Positions 25,830 to 64,000 of a stretch of DNA of 64,000 nt are shown in pieces. The notes below the pieces were generated by a model. The model saw only the letters and a list, made by a program, of their open reading frames with translations. It ran no database searches and had not been told where the DNA came from. The position numbers and the translations under genes are program-made. Position 1 is the first letter of the stretch. Each line of letters opens with the position of its first letter. The stretch is from Acinetobacter populi (GTDB lineage Bacteria > Pseudomonadota > Gammaproteobacteria > Pseudomonadales > Moraxellaceae), in contig NZ_NEXX01000003.1 of the NCBI RefSeq assembly GCF_002174125.1, forward strand, positions 137,749 to 201,748. The letters are read 5' to 3'.

Positions 25830-25849
25830 TGGACGGAGAGACTCGAACT
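25830..25849 (-). other. Candidate attachment-site remnant (tRNA 3'-end-like)
   Basis: The minus strand reads AGTTCGAGTCTCTCCGTCCA, which looks like the T-loop (TTCGAGT) and acceptor 3' end of a tRNA. The upstream half does not pair as a tRNA, as expected for one end of an element that recombined within a tRNA gene. No second copy is visible in the window; the other end should lie beyond base 64,000. Confidence 0.35.
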
Positions 25850-26024: not shown

Positions 26025-26408
26025 TTATTGCAAAGCCATCTCTGCACTTTTTACCAAGAAAGCCGAACGGCTAAGATGTTGTTTCTTGGCAACCGCATCG
26101 ATACGTTTTACCAATGCTTCTGGCATACTGATATTAATACGCACGGATTTTGTATTCACTTTTGATATGTCGATGTCTACCAATAACCAATACCCTCCTT
26201 CAAAGCGTTCATCGCCGATCCATTGTTCGGGGCTAGAAGGCTCAGGTAATGCTATATCTTCACCGTCGAAATGGCATTCTACCGCTTCTTGTGCCATACG
26301 CTGAATATCCTGCATTTCATCAGCAGCACTAAAGCAGCCTTCAAAATCCGGGAAAGTTAAGCCATAGGCAGTATCAGGATCTTTATGAACATATACTGGA
26401 TATAACAT
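26025..26408 (-). CDS. hicB: HicB-family antitoxin (orphan)
   Basis: A 127-residue antitoxin: N-terminal HicB fold (YPVYVHKDPDTAYGLTFPDFEGCFSAADEMQD) and a C-terminal ribbon-helix-helix DNA-binding domain (VRINISMPEALVKRIDAVAKKQHLSRSAFLVKSAEMAL). I start at the ATG at 26408: GGAGG lies just upstream, and the longer ATG would begin inside this ribosome site. Its partner hicA survives only as a 20-codon 3' stub directly upstream, so HicB is left without a toxin to neutralise. It may still act as a repressor or as an anti-toxin against related HicA proteins. Confidence 0.88.
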   Translation of the reverse strand: MLYPVYVHKDPDTAYGLTFPDFEGCFSAADEMQDIQRMAQEAVECHFDGEDIALPEPSSPEQWIGDERFEGGYWLLVDIDISKVNTKSVRINISMPEALVKRIDAVAKKQHLSRSAFLVKSAEMALQ

Positions 26409-26410
26409 AT

Positions 26411-26473
26411 TTACCTCCATTCCCAGCCAGCTTGTTTATAAATATTACGCAGTGTACCAATTGGCGTATCTTT
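26411..26473 (-). pseudogene. hicA: hicA toxin remnant, last 20 codons
   Basis: The minus strand reads KDTPIGTLRNIYKQAGWEWR then stop, two bases before the hicB ATG; this is the typical HicA C-terminus and the typical hicA-hicB spacing. A stop codon in the same frame lies immediately upstream, and doc ends nine bases further on, so the front of the gene, including the dsRNA-binding core and active-site His, has been deleted. Confidence 0.75.
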
Positions 26474-26481
26474 TTATCATT

Positions 26482-26868
26482 TTAAATCTCAGATAATTCA
26501 TATAAAAAGTCTGATACTTTCTGAGCTAAAATCTCATGCTCATCATGGCTTTCAACGATATCTACCATTAGATCATCCAGACCAGTTTGTTCCTTAATAG
26601 TTACACCCTGAATTTCCAAAAACGTAAGCATTACCGCAAGTCCTGTCCGCTTGTTACCATCAACAAATGCATGACCTTTTGCTAAAGCAATACCAAACCA
26701 TGCAGCTATTTCGAATAAATCCTGAACATTGTTGTAATACATCTGCTGGTCAATACGGCTTAAAACACCTTCAAGCTTATCAATGTTGCAACCTTCTCGA
26801 CCAACTCCTGTCTGTCTCAAAATCTCATCATGAACTGCTATAACAAATGTTGAATTAATCAGATTCAT
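26482..26868 (-). CDS. doc: Doc-family toxin (Fic fold)
   Basis: A 128-residue Doc (death on curing) protein. The Fic motif is HAFVDGNKRTGL, with the Lys in place of the second Gly that distinguishes Doc kinases, which phosphorylate EF-Tu, from AMP-transferring Fic enzymes. Start-side text (VIAVHDEILRQTGVGREGCNIDKLEGVLSRIDQQMYY) is typical Doc. Its ATG overlaps the end of the antitoxin gene by four bases. Together they form a two-gene addiction module, now fused on its left with a hicA remnant. Confidence 0.85.
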   Translation of the reverse strand: MNLINSTFVIAVHDEILRQTGVGREGCNIDKLEGVLSRIDQQMYYNNVQDLFEIAAWFGIALAKGHAFVDGNKRTGLAVMLTFLEIQGVTIKEQTGLDDLMVDIVESHDEHEILAQKVSDFLYELSEI

Positions 26869-27044
26869 TTATATGCAAGCTCTTGGATTTCTTCTCTATG
26901 CTGCTTAATCACTCTTTTTGCGCTGTGCATAACAACACGTTTAGTCGCTTCGTCTTTTCCAAAAGAAATAGGTAAAATTTGCCCTGAAATAGCAGGACGA
27001 TCCTTACGCTCATCAACATTGTAATCTTTAAGACGTTTACTCAT
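26865..27044 (-). CDS. Antitoxin partner of Doc
   Basis: A short basic protein of about 59 residues (MSKRLKDYNVDERKDRPAISGQILPISFGKDEATKRVVMHSAKRVIKQHREEIQELAYK) encoded directly before doc, with a four-base overlap. Order, size and overlap fit an antitoxin, although the sequence does not look like classical Phd. I start at 27044 because AGGTG lies six bases upstream; the longer frame would start with GTG. Confidence 0.7.
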   Translation of the reverse strand: MSKRLKDYNVDERKDRPAISGQILPISFGKDEATKRVVMHSAKRVIKQHREEIQELAYK

Positions 27045-27126
27045 ATCTATCACCTATATGATCCCATATTGAGATTATGCCTGCTGATTTTAGCATAAAG
27101 CCATTATCTCAAGCAGGCACATTATA

Positions 27127-27378
27127 TCAAGGTTTAGGAAAATACTTATCCTGATATTCTTCCCGGTCGCAATCAAATAGATTTGCCCAGCTTTCTGCGT
27201 GGCAACGTGCAACATGTGCCAAAGCCTTTACATCGCTACGCTCTGCTGCCTTTTCCTCAATGGTTTTACACATGACATCAAGCTGTCCGGCAACATCACT
27301 GGCAAAACCTAATAATTGGATCATGTGTTTTAAGTCTGCCTTAACCACGATGACCTGATCTTTCATTGCCATGTTCAT
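27127..27378 (-). CDS. Small hypothetical protein, 83 aa
   Basis: Unrecognised, soluble, largely helical, with scattered cysteines (VMCKTIEE, VARCHAES, FDCDREEY). Its start overlaps the end of the gene upstream by four bases, so they are one unit. The sequence KALAHVARCHAESWANLFDCDREEYQDKYFPKP might be a phage cargo protein; no function is assigned. Confidence 0.5.
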   Translation of the reverse strand: MNMAMKDQVIVVKADLKHMIQLLGFASDVAGQLDVMCKTIEEKAAERSDVKALAHVARCHAESWANLFDCDREEYQDKYFPKP

Positions 27379-27695
27379 AGTTTTGGCTCCTGTGCTTGGT
27401 GATTCAAAGCCTTTAATGCCATTTCGATTTGAGTTTCCATACCTGAAATCGCATCAATAATAATGCTATGGCTGAATCGAAAACCTAACTTGATACTTGA
27501 ACCGTTATCAATCAAAAGTTTTGCTGTGGCCAAGGCCTGTGTTAATAAGATATTTGCAACATCATGAGCATCTGCGTCATCTGCATTTTGATCGGTGGTA
27601 AAAAAGTTTTCCGCGCAACCATAATATACAAAAGGTTTCGATTCTTCTGATCCAGAATTTTGCATATCAGGTATAACATGAGCTATACTATTCAT
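27375..27695 (-). CDS. Small hypothetical protein, about 106 aa
   Basis: Unrecognised. The central part is acidic (ENFFTTDQNADDADAHD) and the C-terminal part helical. The start at 27695 (MNSIAHVIPDMQNSG) has AGGAA upstream; the longer frame lacks one. It is translationally coupled to the 27127 gene. Confidence 0.5.
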   Translation of the reverse strand: MNSIAHVIPDMQNSGSEESKPFVYYGCAENFFTTDQNADDADAHDVANILLTQALATAKLLIDNGSSIKLGFRFSHSIIIDAISGMETQIEMALKALNHQAQEPKL

Positions 27696-27772
27696 CGTTG
27701 ATATTCCTATATGTTGACAACTGAAAGCCCTTGATTCCTGCAAGTTTCGTGAGGGCTTTTTTATTGCCTAAA

Positions 27773-28483
27773 TTAAACATTGTTGTTACCCAATAATTTA
27801 GAAAGTTTGGTTAAGCCTTTTGGTGTCACTCTCACCTGCTCTGAAATCTTGATCGAGCCATCGGGCATTGGAATATCCTTAACCTTATGTTCTAAATACC
27901 CTGATTTGATTTTCTCCTGATAAGCAACCCAATGTTTGCTGCCAGTACGTTTATAGATCCAATCATTCAGATTAAGCCACTTGTTAAATTTGTGTGGTTC
28001 CTGCTGTAAAGTTTTGGCTGCATCGGTTAGACATAAACTGCCGTCTGCTGTAGCGATGCGATCAAATGCATCTATGGTCGGTTGCATGACTTCGACTTTC
28101 TGCTCTAGTTCAATGACTTTCTCTGAATAGGTCAGTAATGCGTTACGTAACAGGTTTGGATTAGCTAGGAGTTGCATTGGGTCTATTGGTTTATTGATCT
28201 GTGCTTCCAGTTCTTGCCAACGTACATTGATTTTATGCCGTGCATTTACGTCATAACCTGTCATCAAAGTGATGCTTAGATTTTTATTCAACAAAAACTC
28301 AGATGTATAGCCACGATTATCTTTAAGCTCTTGATATTCTTCATGACTCAATATTGAGTCATCTAAGCTACCAAGCATTTGACGAGTATCACGAACAACA
28401 TTGTCATGTCGTTTACCTGTTAATTCTGAAATTTCACGACTAGACATGAATTTTACTTGTTGCAGCTTTGTTAACGCATTCAT
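27773..28483 (-). CDS. Rha/KilAC-type phage antirepressor
   Basis: A 236-residue phage regulator. The N-terminal part (MSSREISELTGKRHDNVVRDTRQML, then LLNKNLSITLMTGYDVNARHKINVRWQELE) is a Rha-type DNA-binding domain. The C-terminal part (ADGSLCLTDAAKTLQQEPHKFNKWLNLNDWIYKRTGSKHWVAYQEKIKSGYLEHKV) is the KilAC antirepressor domain. A GGAGA site precedes the ATG at 28483. It lies two bases after an Arc-like gene, and the pair sits behind three palindromic operators. The layout matches the arc-ant operon of P22, in which an antirepressor can turn off prophage immunity. Confidence 0.85.
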   Translation of the reverse strand: MNALTKLQQVKFMSSREISELTGKRHDNVVRDTRQMLGSLDDSILSHEEYQELKDNRGYTSEFLLNKNLSITLMTGYDVNARHKINVRWQELEAQINKPIDPMQLLANPNLLRNALLTYSEKVIELEQKVEVMQPTIDAFDRIATADGSLCLTDAAKTLQQEPHKFNKWLNLNDWIYKRTGSKHWVAYQEKIKSGYLEHKVKDIPMPDGSIKISEQVRVTPKGLTKLSKLLGNNNV

Positions 28484-28485
28484 TT

Positions 28486-28632
28486 TCAAATCTCCATTTG
28501 TTGCTTAAATTGCTTAATCGCTTTCACGACTAAATAATTCATTGAACGATCATGCTTCACAGCTAATTCTTTAAGCCAAGCATGTAATTCAGGCGGTATA
28601 CGAACTGCCATTTGTGTATCTGATCTTGCCAC
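28486..28632 (-). CDS. Arc-like ribbon-helix-helix repressor, 48 aa
   Basis: A 48-residue protein (MARSDTQMAVRIPPELHAWLKELAVKHDRSMNYLVVKAIKQFKQQMEI): a beta strand (QMAVRIP) and two helices, as in Arc/MetJ-type repressors. The GTG start at 28632 has AGAGG seven to eight bases upstream. It is the first gene of the leftward unit that ends with the antirepressor and stands across three palindromes from a Mnt-like gene. Confidence 0.75.
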   Translation of the reverse strand: MARSDTQMAVRIPPELHAWLKELAVKHDRSMNYLVVKAIKQFKQQMEI

Positions 28633-28650
28633 AATTTGTTCCTCTTGTGC

Positions 28651-28703
28651 TATTACGGTACTAATGTTAGCACCGTACTAATATTGTGTCTAGTACCGTA
28701 CTA
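28651..28703. promoter_or_regulatory. Three 13-bp palindromic operators between two divergent repressor genes
   Basis: Three related sites in the divergent promoter: TATTACGGTACTA (28651-28663), TAGCACCGTACTA (28668-28680) and TAGTACCGTACTA (28691-28703). The third is a perfect palindrome with arms TAGTAC/GTACTA and one central base. The other two each differ from it in the left arm. The centres are 17 and 23 bases apart. The likely binders are the two flanking ribbon-helix-helix proteins, which would repress both directions. Confidence 0.75.
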
Positions 28704-28738
28704 TCATATTCTTATAAAAAATTTATTTGAGTTATGTA

Positions 28739-29098
28739 ATGGCTAGAAATGACCCTCAATTCAACTTACGTGTACCTGTTGAGCTTAAACAAAAAGTTGA
28801 AGAAGCGGCTAAAGAAAGTGGAAGGTCTATTAATGCTGAGGCAGTGTACCGACTTGAAGAAAGTTTTATTGAAACAATCCCTGCTGAAGGACTTAACCAA
28901 ATCGTTGCTGCCTATCTTATGGGAATGCATTCTCGTTACTTGTCTGAAAGAGATGATTTAGTGGCTATGTTGCAACAGAAATCAAATAATAGTGAATTAA
29001 AAATAAAAATCGAAAAATATGATCTTTTGATTTCTGAAATTAGATCTAATGCAGAAAGACTATTTCCTAATGCATTTAAAAAAAGTGATGAAAGCTAA
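28739..29098 (+). CDS. Mnt-like ribbon-helix-helix repressor
   Basis: A 119-residue protein whose first 40 residues (MARNDPQFNLRVPVELKQKVEEAAKESGRSINAEAVYRLEES) resemble the N-terminus of phage P22 Mnt and Arc: the NDPQFNLRVP strand and GRSINAE helix start are the hallmarks. A long helical C-terminal part (about 55-119) probably forms the tetramer. I start at the ATG at 28739, since the longer frame begins with TTG. Divergent from the Arc-like gene across three operators. Confidence 0.85.
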   Translation: MARNDPQFNLRVPVELKQKVEEAAKESGRSINAEAVYRLEESFIETIPAEGLNQIVAAYLMGMHSRYLSERDDLVAMLQQKSNNSELKIKIEKYDLLISEIRSNAERLFPNAFKKSDES

Positions 29099-30960: not shown

Positions 30961-32952
30961 TTAAATATTATCAATACACTTAGGAATATATTTCCCATGT
31001 ACTTCTTTTAAGTACTTCTGAGAACTTTCTTGTGTGACTTCATATTGCAGATGCTGATTAATAAACTGTAGCTTGGCTCTTGCATTCGCAATAATTTCAG
31101 ACCACGTTTTAACCCATACTGTAATATTCTGCTGTGAAGAATCATGTATTAAACCCTTTGGTTTATTTCTTTGATTAGATTCTTCTTCCGCATAAGCATC
31201 CAACTCATTAGAAATAGCGAGGAAAGTCCACTTGGCTGGAACATTATGAAATCTTTCATCCATAGCAACAGCAGTGGCATATTTTTTGATTTGAACAATG
31301 ACTTCAGCATCAACTTTTTTGGATGGTCGTTTTAGCTCCACAACCAAGTAATCAAACTCTCCATGACGTGTTTGGTTTACTTTACTTAGCATCAAATCAA
31401 TACGCCCTGTTCTACCATCTGAGAGTAGTACTGGATCAAAGCTTTCTATTGTATCTTCACGATCGCCTAGTTTGGAGATATGCTTTTTTAGTACCGTTTC
31501 TAAACGTTCTTCAGATTGAGATAAAGTAAAATTTTCATCAAAAATCCATGCTTCATTTTCAAGCATTTTATGTAATTGGTCTCTTTCAGTGAAGATTTTC
31601 TTAGTCTTGTCCCCAAATAGAAGACTCTCTAATTCATCTAGGAAATTTAACCTGTTTGCCACAATCGTTGCAGATGAAATAATTGAAGAAAGTTCAGTAT
31701 TGTTTAATAATTCTGCCAATTTATCTTGATCCTCTTTGCTTAAACCCAAAACTTCAGTAATAATTTTTTGAACAGATTCTGGATTTTCTGTAATAGCTTG
31801 AGCAATTAGTTTAAACATAAATTTCTTAGATGTCGTTTCAGTTTTATCAAAATTTGGTAAAAATGTTTGTACATTCACAGCAAGAATATCAAACACCTCT
31901 TGTTCAGCTTTCTCTACAGAAGTCAGACTACTTTTATCTTTATATGGGTAAATATCTTGATCTTTCCACTCTTGAACAATACCACTATATTTTTCTGAAA
32001 TTCTTTTTCTAAAATGTGCCTGAATAGTCGTTATTGCAATATCAATGATAGTTTTTACTGTTGGTTCGAGTTCAGCTAATCCTAATGTCCCTGTATTTTC
32101 TAATTCTTGAAAATATTCACTTTTTAAATATGCAGTAAAATTAAAACCTTTCGCTTTAATTCTATTTTTTGGTTCGTATTCATTTAAGGAGATACCTTTT
32201 GCTGAACATAAATTGATGACTCGATCAGTTTCTATATCCCATTCAACGATAGTTAGTGTTACTGAGTGATCTGTAATATAACTACAATCTTCTGTTAGAT
32301 CATAATTTCTTGAGCATATTTGAACACTTTTAGGATCTATTTTTACTCCATTAAAATTCAATTGTAAATTTGGATACTCAGTTAAAAATACTGCAAAACA
32401 TTTCGTTAATTCATTTAGTGTTTTATCTTTTATTAATTCATCGGCTTTTTTAAATAAATTTGAAATAATAACTCTAGTCCCTTTTTGACCTTTATCATTA
32501 TTTTCTAAATCGCTAGTTTTAAACTCCTCAATTTGATTATGATTACCAAGAATTGAATAAGTACTATATTTATTCTGATCTAAGAAAGTCGTTTCCCACT
32601 CTATATCTGCACCTAAACAAAATGCTTTAAATCGTCCTTTACCATTTTGACCATGTAAAGGGTGATGATAGTTATCTTTTTTTAATTTTTTCCATGAGTC
32701 ACCAATCTCTCCAAAGTATGATGCTACATCTTTAAATGGAATTCCATCACCCTGATCTTCAACAATGATAGAGTCAAGACCCTCCATAGAATTATATTTA
32801 AGTGTTACAGTTACTATTTGAGATGATGCATCAAAACCATTCCAAATAAGCTCACTCAATGCCTTAGTTGCGGATGCTTCTGTTAAAGTTTTTATATGCC
32901 CAGGCGTTGCGACAATTTTTAACGGTTTAAAATTTTGAGTTTTTTTGTCCAT
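30961..32952 (-). CDS. GHKL ATPase fused to a Shedu-like PD-(D/E)xK nuclease
   Basis: About 663 residues with two visible modules. Residues 1-170 (counted from the GTG frame, Met1 at 32961) are a GHKL (Hsp90, MutL, gyrase) ATPase: N box with E38, N41 and D44 in SELIWNGFDA; G1 box DQGDGI (69-74); G2 box GQNGKGRF (104-111); G3 KGTRVII (about 159-165). Residues about 459-600 look like the Shedu (DUF4263) nuclease: the LHKMLENEAWIFDENF helix, then D522 in GRIDLML, E542-x-K544 in VVELKRP, Q557 and Y561. This is a complete PD-(D/E)xK set. The family context is anti-phage defence, and the prophage cargo position agrees. I start at the ATG at 32952; a GTG nine bases upstream is also possible. Confidence 0.75.
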   Translation of the reverse strand: MDKKTQNFKPLKIVATPGHIKTLTEASATKALSELIWNGFDASSQIVTVTLKYNSMEGLDSIIVEDQGDGIPFKDVASYFGEIGDSWKKLKKDNYHHPLHGQNGKGRFKAFCLGADIEWETTFLDQNKYSTYSILGNHNQIEEFKTSDLENNDKGQKGTRVIISNLFKKADELIKDKTLNELTKCFAVFLTEYPNLQLNFNGVKIDPKSVQICSRNYDLTEDCSYITDHSVTLTIVEWDIETDRVINLCSAKGISLNEYEPKNRIKAKGFNFTAYLKSEYFQELENTGTLGLAELEPTVKTIIDIAITTIQAHFRKRISEKYSGIVQEWKDQDIYPYKDKSSLTSVEKAEQEVFDILAVNVQTFLPNFDKTETTSKKFMFKLIAQAITENPESVQKIITEVLGLSKEDQDKLAELLNNTELSSIISSATIVANRLNFLDELESLLFGDKTKKIFTERDQLHKMLENEAWIFDENFTLSQSEERLETVLKKHISKLGDREDTIESFDPVLLSDGRTGRIDLMLSKVNQTRHGEFDYLVVELKRPSKKVDAEVIVQIKKYATAVAMDERFHNVPAKWTFLAISNELDAYAEEESNQRNKPKGLIHDSSQQNITVWVKTWSEIIANARAKLQFINQHLQYEVTQESSQKYLKEVHGKYIPKCIDNI

Positions 32953-33097
32953 GTTATTCACAATATTGACTTATATAACAAGTTTATTGAGATAATATAC
33001 CCCATCATGAGGCATTGTGATATGGTTTAGCTAGATTTTTTGAACAGAACAAAAGATTGTTTTCAAAGTTAGTGGAACAATAGAAGAAGATCATATC

Positions 33098-63845: not shown

Positions 63846-64000
63846 ATGGATAGTAAAAGTATTCGTTATCAAAACACTCGATTACTCGTAGATTCTGTGG
63901 GTGGTGTATCTAACTTCGCCGATAAAATCGGTAAAGGGCAATCTCAAACAAGCCAGTTTGCAGGTACTAATCCCATCAAAGGGATCGGCAATAAAGTCGC
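63846..64000 (+). CDS. CI-like repressor, N-terminal part (cut by window edge)
   Basis: The first 51 residues of a phage repressor read MDSKSIRYQNTRLLVDSVGG then NFADKIGKGQSQTSQFAGTNPIKGIGNKVA, a helix-turn-helix of the type found in C2/CI-family repressors (S24 peptidase group). It is the only plus-strand gene at the right end, divergent from cro. The rest lies beyond base 64,000, probably followed by the integrase. Confidence 0.75.
   Translation, partial: MDSKSIRYQNTRLLVDSVGGVSNFADKIGKGQSQTSQFAGTNPIKGIGNKV

Follow-up and report, generated by a model that had tools for sequence, protein, structure and literature searches.

A putative immI-type immunity switch near the end of an Acinetobacter populi prophage, and a module family in which operator sequence tracks the Mnt-like repressor

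Introduction

P22 immI is a textbook second immunity system. Two divergent ribbon-helix-helix (RHH) genes, three palindromes and an antirepressor gene lie near the left end of a prophage in Acinetobacter populi. Do they form a second immunity switch of the immI type, and which of the two RHH proteins reads the palindromes? We approached both questions in the window, i.e., the whole 64,000-nucleotide stretch of A. populi DNA that was analyzed, and in a family of related modules from IMG/VR contigs and Acinetobacter genomes. The published immI region (mnt, arc, ant, sar) served as the model for the layout (excerpts of PMC8022706, PMC2629481, and PMC7549136).

Results

The module and its place in the prophage

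The original prediction described divergent RHH genes flanking three 13-bp palindromes in 27773-29098 of the window. Pfam, the sequence itself and a shuffle test agree that they are present. The features, in window positions, are:

25831-25849, no strand: left attachment repeat of 19 bp, also found in the tRNA-Leu gene at the right end of the prophage
27127-27378, minus strand: small gene, possibly in the same operon as ant (similar ORFs, by eye, after ant in modules L011-L013)
27375-27743, minus strand: small gene after ant, possibly in the same operon, ORF start uncertain (ORF list; family not found in Pfam)
27773-28483, minus strand: Ant, antirepressor of 236 aa with N-terminal Rha and C-terminal KilAC (Pfam; PHROG anti-repressor Ant, 3e-54)
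28486-28632, minus strand: S, short Arc/HicB-like RHH protein of 48 aa with a GTG start (Pfam HicB and Arc)
28651-28663, no strand: candidate operator O3, TATTACGGTACTA, directly downstream of the proposed -10
28664-28692, minus strand: proposed S-ant promoter (TAGACA, 17 nt, TAACAT), the only sigma-70-like match
28668-28680, no strand: candidate operator O2, TAGCACCGTACTA, within the spacer of the proposed S-ant promoter
28691-28703, no strand: candidate operator O1, TAGTACCGTACTA, a perfect palindrome touching the -35 of the proposed S-ant promoter
28739-29098, plus strand: D, Mnt-like RHH repressor of 119 aa, with an RHH head (residues 1-45) and a helical C-terminal part (Pfam Arc, PDB matches)
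63846-64000 and on beyond the window, plus strand: CI-like repressor of 130 aa, presumed target of Ant (PHROG transcriptional repressor, 4e-13)

The prophage measures about 46 kb, with its left end at 25831, and extends past the right edge of the window; the right-end copy of the 19-bp repeat lies inside the tRNA-Leu gene L224:7894-7978. An IMG/VR contig (45,692 bases) starts at window position 26025, and its D and Ant are identical to those of the window. The repressor-like gene expected at 63846 exists and reaches the equivalent of 64238 past the window. The module is indeed remote from it, at a distance of about 35 kb, and lies about 2 kb from the left attachment site. The CI-like protein matched nothing in Pfam, hence no peptidase S24 domain was found, and for this reason the antirepressor may be its main off-switch.

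D matches the Pfam Arc family (PF03869: E = 7e-14, 51.8 bits, curated cut-off 20.4) and, by sequence comparison, pArc, Mnt (1mnt), and Arc in the PDB; its predicted model has helices at 14-27 and 31-44, then at 49-80 and 85-108. The start of D had been called close to Mnt; D does have a Mnt-like start and a PDB match to Mnt, but its strand triad is the Q-N-R of Arc. The proposed profile search for Arc and Mnt likewise succeeded in part: both D and S carry an Arc domain above cut-off, but the Mnt C-terminal domain PF11423, which P22 Mnt has, was not found in D up to E = 1 (Pfam). A fold search with the D model returned nothing at E = 0.001 or better; PadR and coiled-coil proteins headed the matches listed, which included no Arc or Mnt. 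In its C-terminal part, D shares 60% identity with the D protein of L367, whose head reads DIQFNLRI.

S passes the curated Pfam cut-offs for both HicB (1e-7) and Arc (7e-5; 23 bits, cut-off 20.4), and matches a RelB-like antitoxin model weakly, below cut-off. Its strand reads Q-A-R, similar to the Q-N-R of D. The Rha/KilAC antirepressor gene follows two bases after S, as predicted, the stop codon of S occupying 28488-28486 and the ATG of ant lying at 28483 (stop at 27773; the mechanical ORF extends to a TTG at 28489). Both domains of Ant are recognized by Pfam (KilAC (ANT) 5e-31, Rha 2e-8), and its predicted model is weak (mean pLDDT 71.3, pTM 0.37). The same genome encodes, at G000:C1:1144503-1144874, a protein related to the N-terminal portion of Ant (37% identity, E = 2e-12), which may mean that the host holds another antirepressor.

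Several observations concern the surroundings. Window positions 26025-27053 carry, on the ant strand, a HicB-type antitoxin gene, directly upstream of which a HicA gene would not fit, and a Doc-like toxin gene preceded by an unnamed 62-aa ORF; in L014, a HicA-like ORF (labeled by eye) precedes the HicB-like gene after ant. Candidate defense cargo lies at both prophage ends (L224:352-3473 and window 30961-32961) and comprises a PD-Lambda-5_A-like protein (1e-13), a DruM-like cytosine methylase, and a GHKL-type ATPase. Past the window, at the right end of the prophage, the integrase frame L224:6192-7397 contains one in-frame stop that divides it into ORFs of 228 and 155 aa, and excision may therefore be impaired in the A. 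populi genome.

Three operators and a proposed switch

An unsupervised search for the best six-base half-site with three non-overlapping palindromes returned a triple scoring 34 of 36 in the window, compared with a mean of 27.3 (SD = 0.8, maximum 31) in 400 dinucleotide shuffles. When a pattern derived from the window itself was scanned with up to two mismatches, the three operators were the only matches in the 64 kb (shuffles: mean 0.46; three matches in 0 of 100). The 3.69-Mb genome contains one further operator-like site, with one mismatch, so that D looks like a local regulator. In the window alone, the S-ant promoter match is no better than chance (one found, 1.0 expected in shuffles). 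Across the family described below, 92 of 108 modules have the center of O2 inside the spacer of their best sigma-70 match, a count made without a chance control.

The start of S (28628-28639, minus strand) reads ACAAATTGTGGC, which is near one operator arm of the class with DHTIV heads. The likeness is probably due to chance, and is possibly a leftover of an earlier cassette.

We propose that the module is an immI-type second immunity switch, in which D silences S-ant and Ant, once made, disables the prophage repressor; we give this reading a probability of about three in four. D would be made in the lysogen and would keep ant silent by occupying the three like 13-bp operators, which surround the S-ant promoter at its -35, its spacer and its start region. 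If D were lost, or if the phage entered a cell without a matching D, the S-ant operon would be expressed, the CI-like repressor from 63846 would presumably be inactivated by the Rha/KilAC protein, and lytic growth would follow. S would then damp the S-ant operon. The parts, the non-random operators and the correspondence between operators and D are computational observations; beyond them, we infer binding and repression by D (with any control of its own gene), an effect of Ant on the repressor, and what S does.

A family of modules fronting several kinds of antirepressor

We collected related modules from IMG/VR contigs and 175 Acinetobacter genomes with a script that picked divergent RHH pairs by protein homology and made no use of palindromes, and found 136 distinct modules. 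They represent a sample of the family, since two of the scans took the best 80 of 412 and the best 80 of 338 relatives, and they were deduplicated by exact string only, with close relatives remaining. Two modules lacked the length needed for the operator scan. The triple palindrome array exceeded all of a module's own shuffles (30 each) in 108 of the 134 modules scored and failed to do so in 26; in seven of these (L162-L166, L217, L219), operators that are visible in the sequence were lost through the script's choice of start codon.

The gene after S was located in 135 of the 136 modules. Pfam assigned these 135 genes to KilAC (28), Bro-N (27), Rha (25), KilA-N (23), and P22_AR_N (20), and less often to ORF6C (9), AntA (6), ORF6N (3), ORF11CD3 (3), P22_AR_C (1), and DUF7874 (1), one protein being able to match several families. 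One switch type therefore fronts unrelated kinds of antirepressor. Among polylysogens, none of 13 module pairs belonged to one class, compared with 1.97 expected (P = 0.11, not significant; the count covers modules on loci hand-mapped to genomes, with a head score > 25). This count leans, without reaching significance, toward classes that would act as separate immunity groups.

Operator sequence tracks D

Pairwise comparison covered 106 modules, with R-x-R heads misread by one register. Pairs that agreed in the D strand (at least 7/8) but had S below 50% identity had 4.93 of 6 half-site bases in common (175 pairs; 71% with at least five). Where S was at least 80% identical and the D strands differed, the value was 4.17 (18 pairs; 11% with at least five), and it was 2.70 where D and S both differed (3697 pairs; 7% with at least five). 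In a joint regression on operator likeness over the same modules, the coefficient of D was 2.72 (permutation maximum 0.54); that of S was smaller, 1.36, but still above its permutation maximum of 1.27.

Natural swaps show the same association. The D heads of L257 and L348 are 86 and 84% identical to that of the window, while S (31 and 35%) and the next gene (15 and 14%) are not related to the window's, and yet their operators are of the window's type and in nearly the same places. L182 and L184 have the same next gene (100% identity) and nearly the same S (94%), but the operators are of the CCCC type and the CCACA type, respectively, and the D heads differ. D heads and operators also differ between L170 and L171 (S 94%, next gene 66% identical), and modules L162 and L164 have operators of the CCACA type vs. 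the CACCC type in L163, L165, and L166, with equal S residues over the displayed stretch. Exchange extends to the C-terminal part of D: heads differ in 47 of 125 related C-terminal pairs, a count that leaves out eight L285 pairs, which are not head swaps, and L030 and L174 have different heads on C-termini that are 97% identical. Operator sequence thus tracks D across the family, and the covariation and the natural swaps support the prediction that the Mnt-like protein reads the palindromes.

D and S could instead be rivals for the three operators, like CI and Cro, in a two-way switch in which S is more than a damper. In its favor, the Q-A-R strand of the window's S is of the same type as the Q-N-R of D, the triads of D and S are often alike among 90 modules (QNR/QNR 19, QNR/QAR 10, QKR/QKR 7), and S strands in these modules covary with the operators (up to z = 13.6). 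In the same 90 modules, however, a different D triad beside a fixed S triad cuts the match at bases 4-6 from 2.30 to 1.75 of 3, whereas a different S triad beside a fixed D triad cuts it only from 2.30 to 2.17. Moreover, the T-K, I-R, and T-R classes show the same S types beside different operators; in these classes, S is probably not the reader of the class-specific bases. We therefore give the two-way switch appreciable but clearly less than even credence. In the window's lineage, S could share the three palindromes, as its strand there is similar and S is associated with operators.

Two strand residues and half-site bases 4-6

In a set of 45 distinct strands, position -2 (counted from the conserved Arg) covaried with half-site bases 4, 5, and 6 (z = 8.8, 7.8, and 7.5), as did position -4 (z = 3.3, 8.6, and 6.0). 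The buried positions -3 (z = 0.1, 0.0, and 1.3) and -1 (z = 1.6, 0.5, and -0.2) showed no such covariation; they serve as an internal control because they have their ancestry in common with -4 and -2. The control is imperfect: in the same strands, z is as high as 5.1 for positions -6 and -5 with single bases, and bases 1-2 give up to 4.0 with -3 and 3.7 with -1. In a less deduplicated set of 74 combinations, z with bases 4-6 was 3.0 to 6.7 for -3/-1 and 13.4 to 20.8 for -4/-2. The weaker contrast in this set, together with the z of up to 13.6 for S, indicates that common ancestry or binding by S contributes. The strand Arg itself is invariant, and the covariation in the 45 strands supports putative operator contacts by -4 and -2.

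Q-N strands (n = 16) go with CTA (6), CTT (5), ATA (3), TAA (1), and GTA (1) at bases 4-6, and Q-K strands (n = 12) with GTT (5), GTC (5), ATC (1), and GTG (1). All 14 T-K-R modules with significant arrays have ATGGGG, and the half-site ends in TGG in 16 of 16 I-R-R modules and in AGG in 3 of 3 T-R-R modules. Leave-one-out prediction of bases 4-6 was right in 77 of 114 cases from -4/-2, compared with 63 of 123 from -3/-1, 49 of 117 from -1/+1, and 57 of 99 from -5/-3; the code is therefore coarse.

Two checks against known proteins agree with these groups. P22 Arc (Q-N-R) has, by eye, CTA at positions 4-6 of both half-sites, as do 6 of the 16 QNR strands. AmrZ (K-V-R) recognizes GGC half-sites through its strand residues K18, V20, and R22 (excerpt of PMC3325190), and the KVR phage head of L082 goes with TGGC..GCCA sites whose spacing, by eye, is that of AmrZ. 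The triad of P22 Mnt (H-N-R; half-site GTGGAC by eye) was not found among the family modules. The operator of the window has an Mnt-like inner GT and an Arc-like outer CTA, and this mixture fits a D strand with an Mnt-like start and an Arc triad; its half-sites mostly have A at position 3, where G stands in 43 of the 45 strands.

We consider it somewhat more probable than its opposite that there are many immI-type immunity groups with movable cassettes of a D head and three operators, in which two strand residues largely set bases 4-6. Head and operators would be swapped as one block between unchanged C-terminal domains of D and unchanged arc-like and antirepressor genes. The RHH code would then be readable, with Q-N mostly giving CTA or CTT, Q-K mostly GTT or GTC, T-K GGG, I-R TGG, and T-R AGG, and the window would be placed in the Q-N group. 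Among the open-licence papers listed, no title or abstract beginning described head-operator covariation or cassette exchange of this kind.

Discussion

Two further alternatives to the immI-type switch are both unlikely in our judgment. D might control a cargo operon, with the KilAC protein an ordinary DNA-binding regulator of host or prophage genes and the CI-like repressor untouched. Small genes do follow ant on the same strand, with Doc-like and HicB-like genes after them, and KilAC and Rha are domain labels. This reading is opposed by the several unrelated antirepressor-domain families that occupy the place after S, and by the lysis of Acinetobacter baumannii 19606 cells upon knockdown of a prophage Arc-family gene (excerpt of PMC10865783). 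The module might also be intact but idle in a defective copy of the prophage, as the in-frame stop in the integrase frame past the window could suggest; D, S, Ant and the three operators are, however, all uninterrupted, and an IMG/VR copy has an identical D and Ant. A toxin-antitoxin pair with an RHH antitoxin is very improbable, despite the match of S to HicB and its weak, below cut-off match to the RelB-like antitoxin model, given that the gene coupled to S encodes an antirepressor rather than a toxin and that the best family of D is Arc.

The immI-type switch that we prefer would have wider meaning. The presence of the immI architecture in many Acinetobacter prophages, with several kinds of antirepressor, suggests that RHH-gated silencing is common. 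Naturally matched sets of heads and operators open the DNA choice of RHH proteins to direct testing, and would let one predict between which prophages protection or induction occurs.

An RHH-gated antirepressor may also explain why an Arc-family gene tops a knockdown screen in A. baumannii. In a CRISPRi study of strain 19606, no knockdown was depleted more strongly than that of the prophage Arc-family gene GO593_00515. Growing cells lysed when this gene was knocked down, whereas strains from which the prophage, and the gene with it, had been deleted were recovered; the study genome is CP046654 (excerpts of PMC10865783). Genome G085, presumably of that strain, has a divergent RHH module at 98.9 kb. 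AGCA-N4-TGCT sites recur there (by eye), a gene with an AntA domain lies downstream of the short RHH gene, and crude ORF counts that leave five tRNA genes uncounted place this module at tags 00505 to 00565. GO593_00515 therefore probably belongs, judging from position, to a module of the window's kind, although the short RHH gene beside D in G085 is also of the Arc family. Like D as we propose it, GO593_00515 of A. baumannii ATCC 19606 is an Acinetobacter prophage Arc-family gene required against lysis (excerpts of PMC10865783); its probable locus differs in being of the AntA type instead of Rha/KilAC and in having another D head and operator. By analogy with this gene, identified from its position, lysis upon loss of D is plausible.

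The comparison with P22 immI had been the core of the original prediction, and it stands for the divergent genes, the operators and the antirepressor but fails for the type of Ant, the room for sar and the single type of site. In both systems, an Mnt-like gene diverges from an arc-like/ant operon with operators between them, there are two RHH proteins and an antirepressor, and one operator lies in the spacer of the ant promoter. P22 Ant, however, consists of P22_AR_N and P22_AR_C only, whereas the window's Ant is Rha/KilAC; P22 has sar in the arc-ant gap, for which the 2-bp gap of the window is too small; and P22 has one Oarc and one Omnt, in contrast to three sites of one type. The P22 region lies between genes 16 and 9, and the window module beside attL. 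D differs further in combining an Mnt-like start with the Arc triad Q-N-R. Relative to P22 immI, the window is set apart by its type of Ant, a gap too small for sar, operators that are all alike, and its location.

Other known systems share single aspects with the module. The "ant moron" of P22-like phages is likewise a mobile, variable block with an mnt-like gene and an antirepressor, but sits in the late operon (excerpt of PMC2629481). Trans-acting antirepressors have been published for Salmonella prophages (PMC3121763). AmrZ of Pseudomonas aeruginosa has a related RHH head (PDB 3qoq; excerpt of PMC3325190), but is a chromosomal regulator, whereas D would belong to a phage switch.
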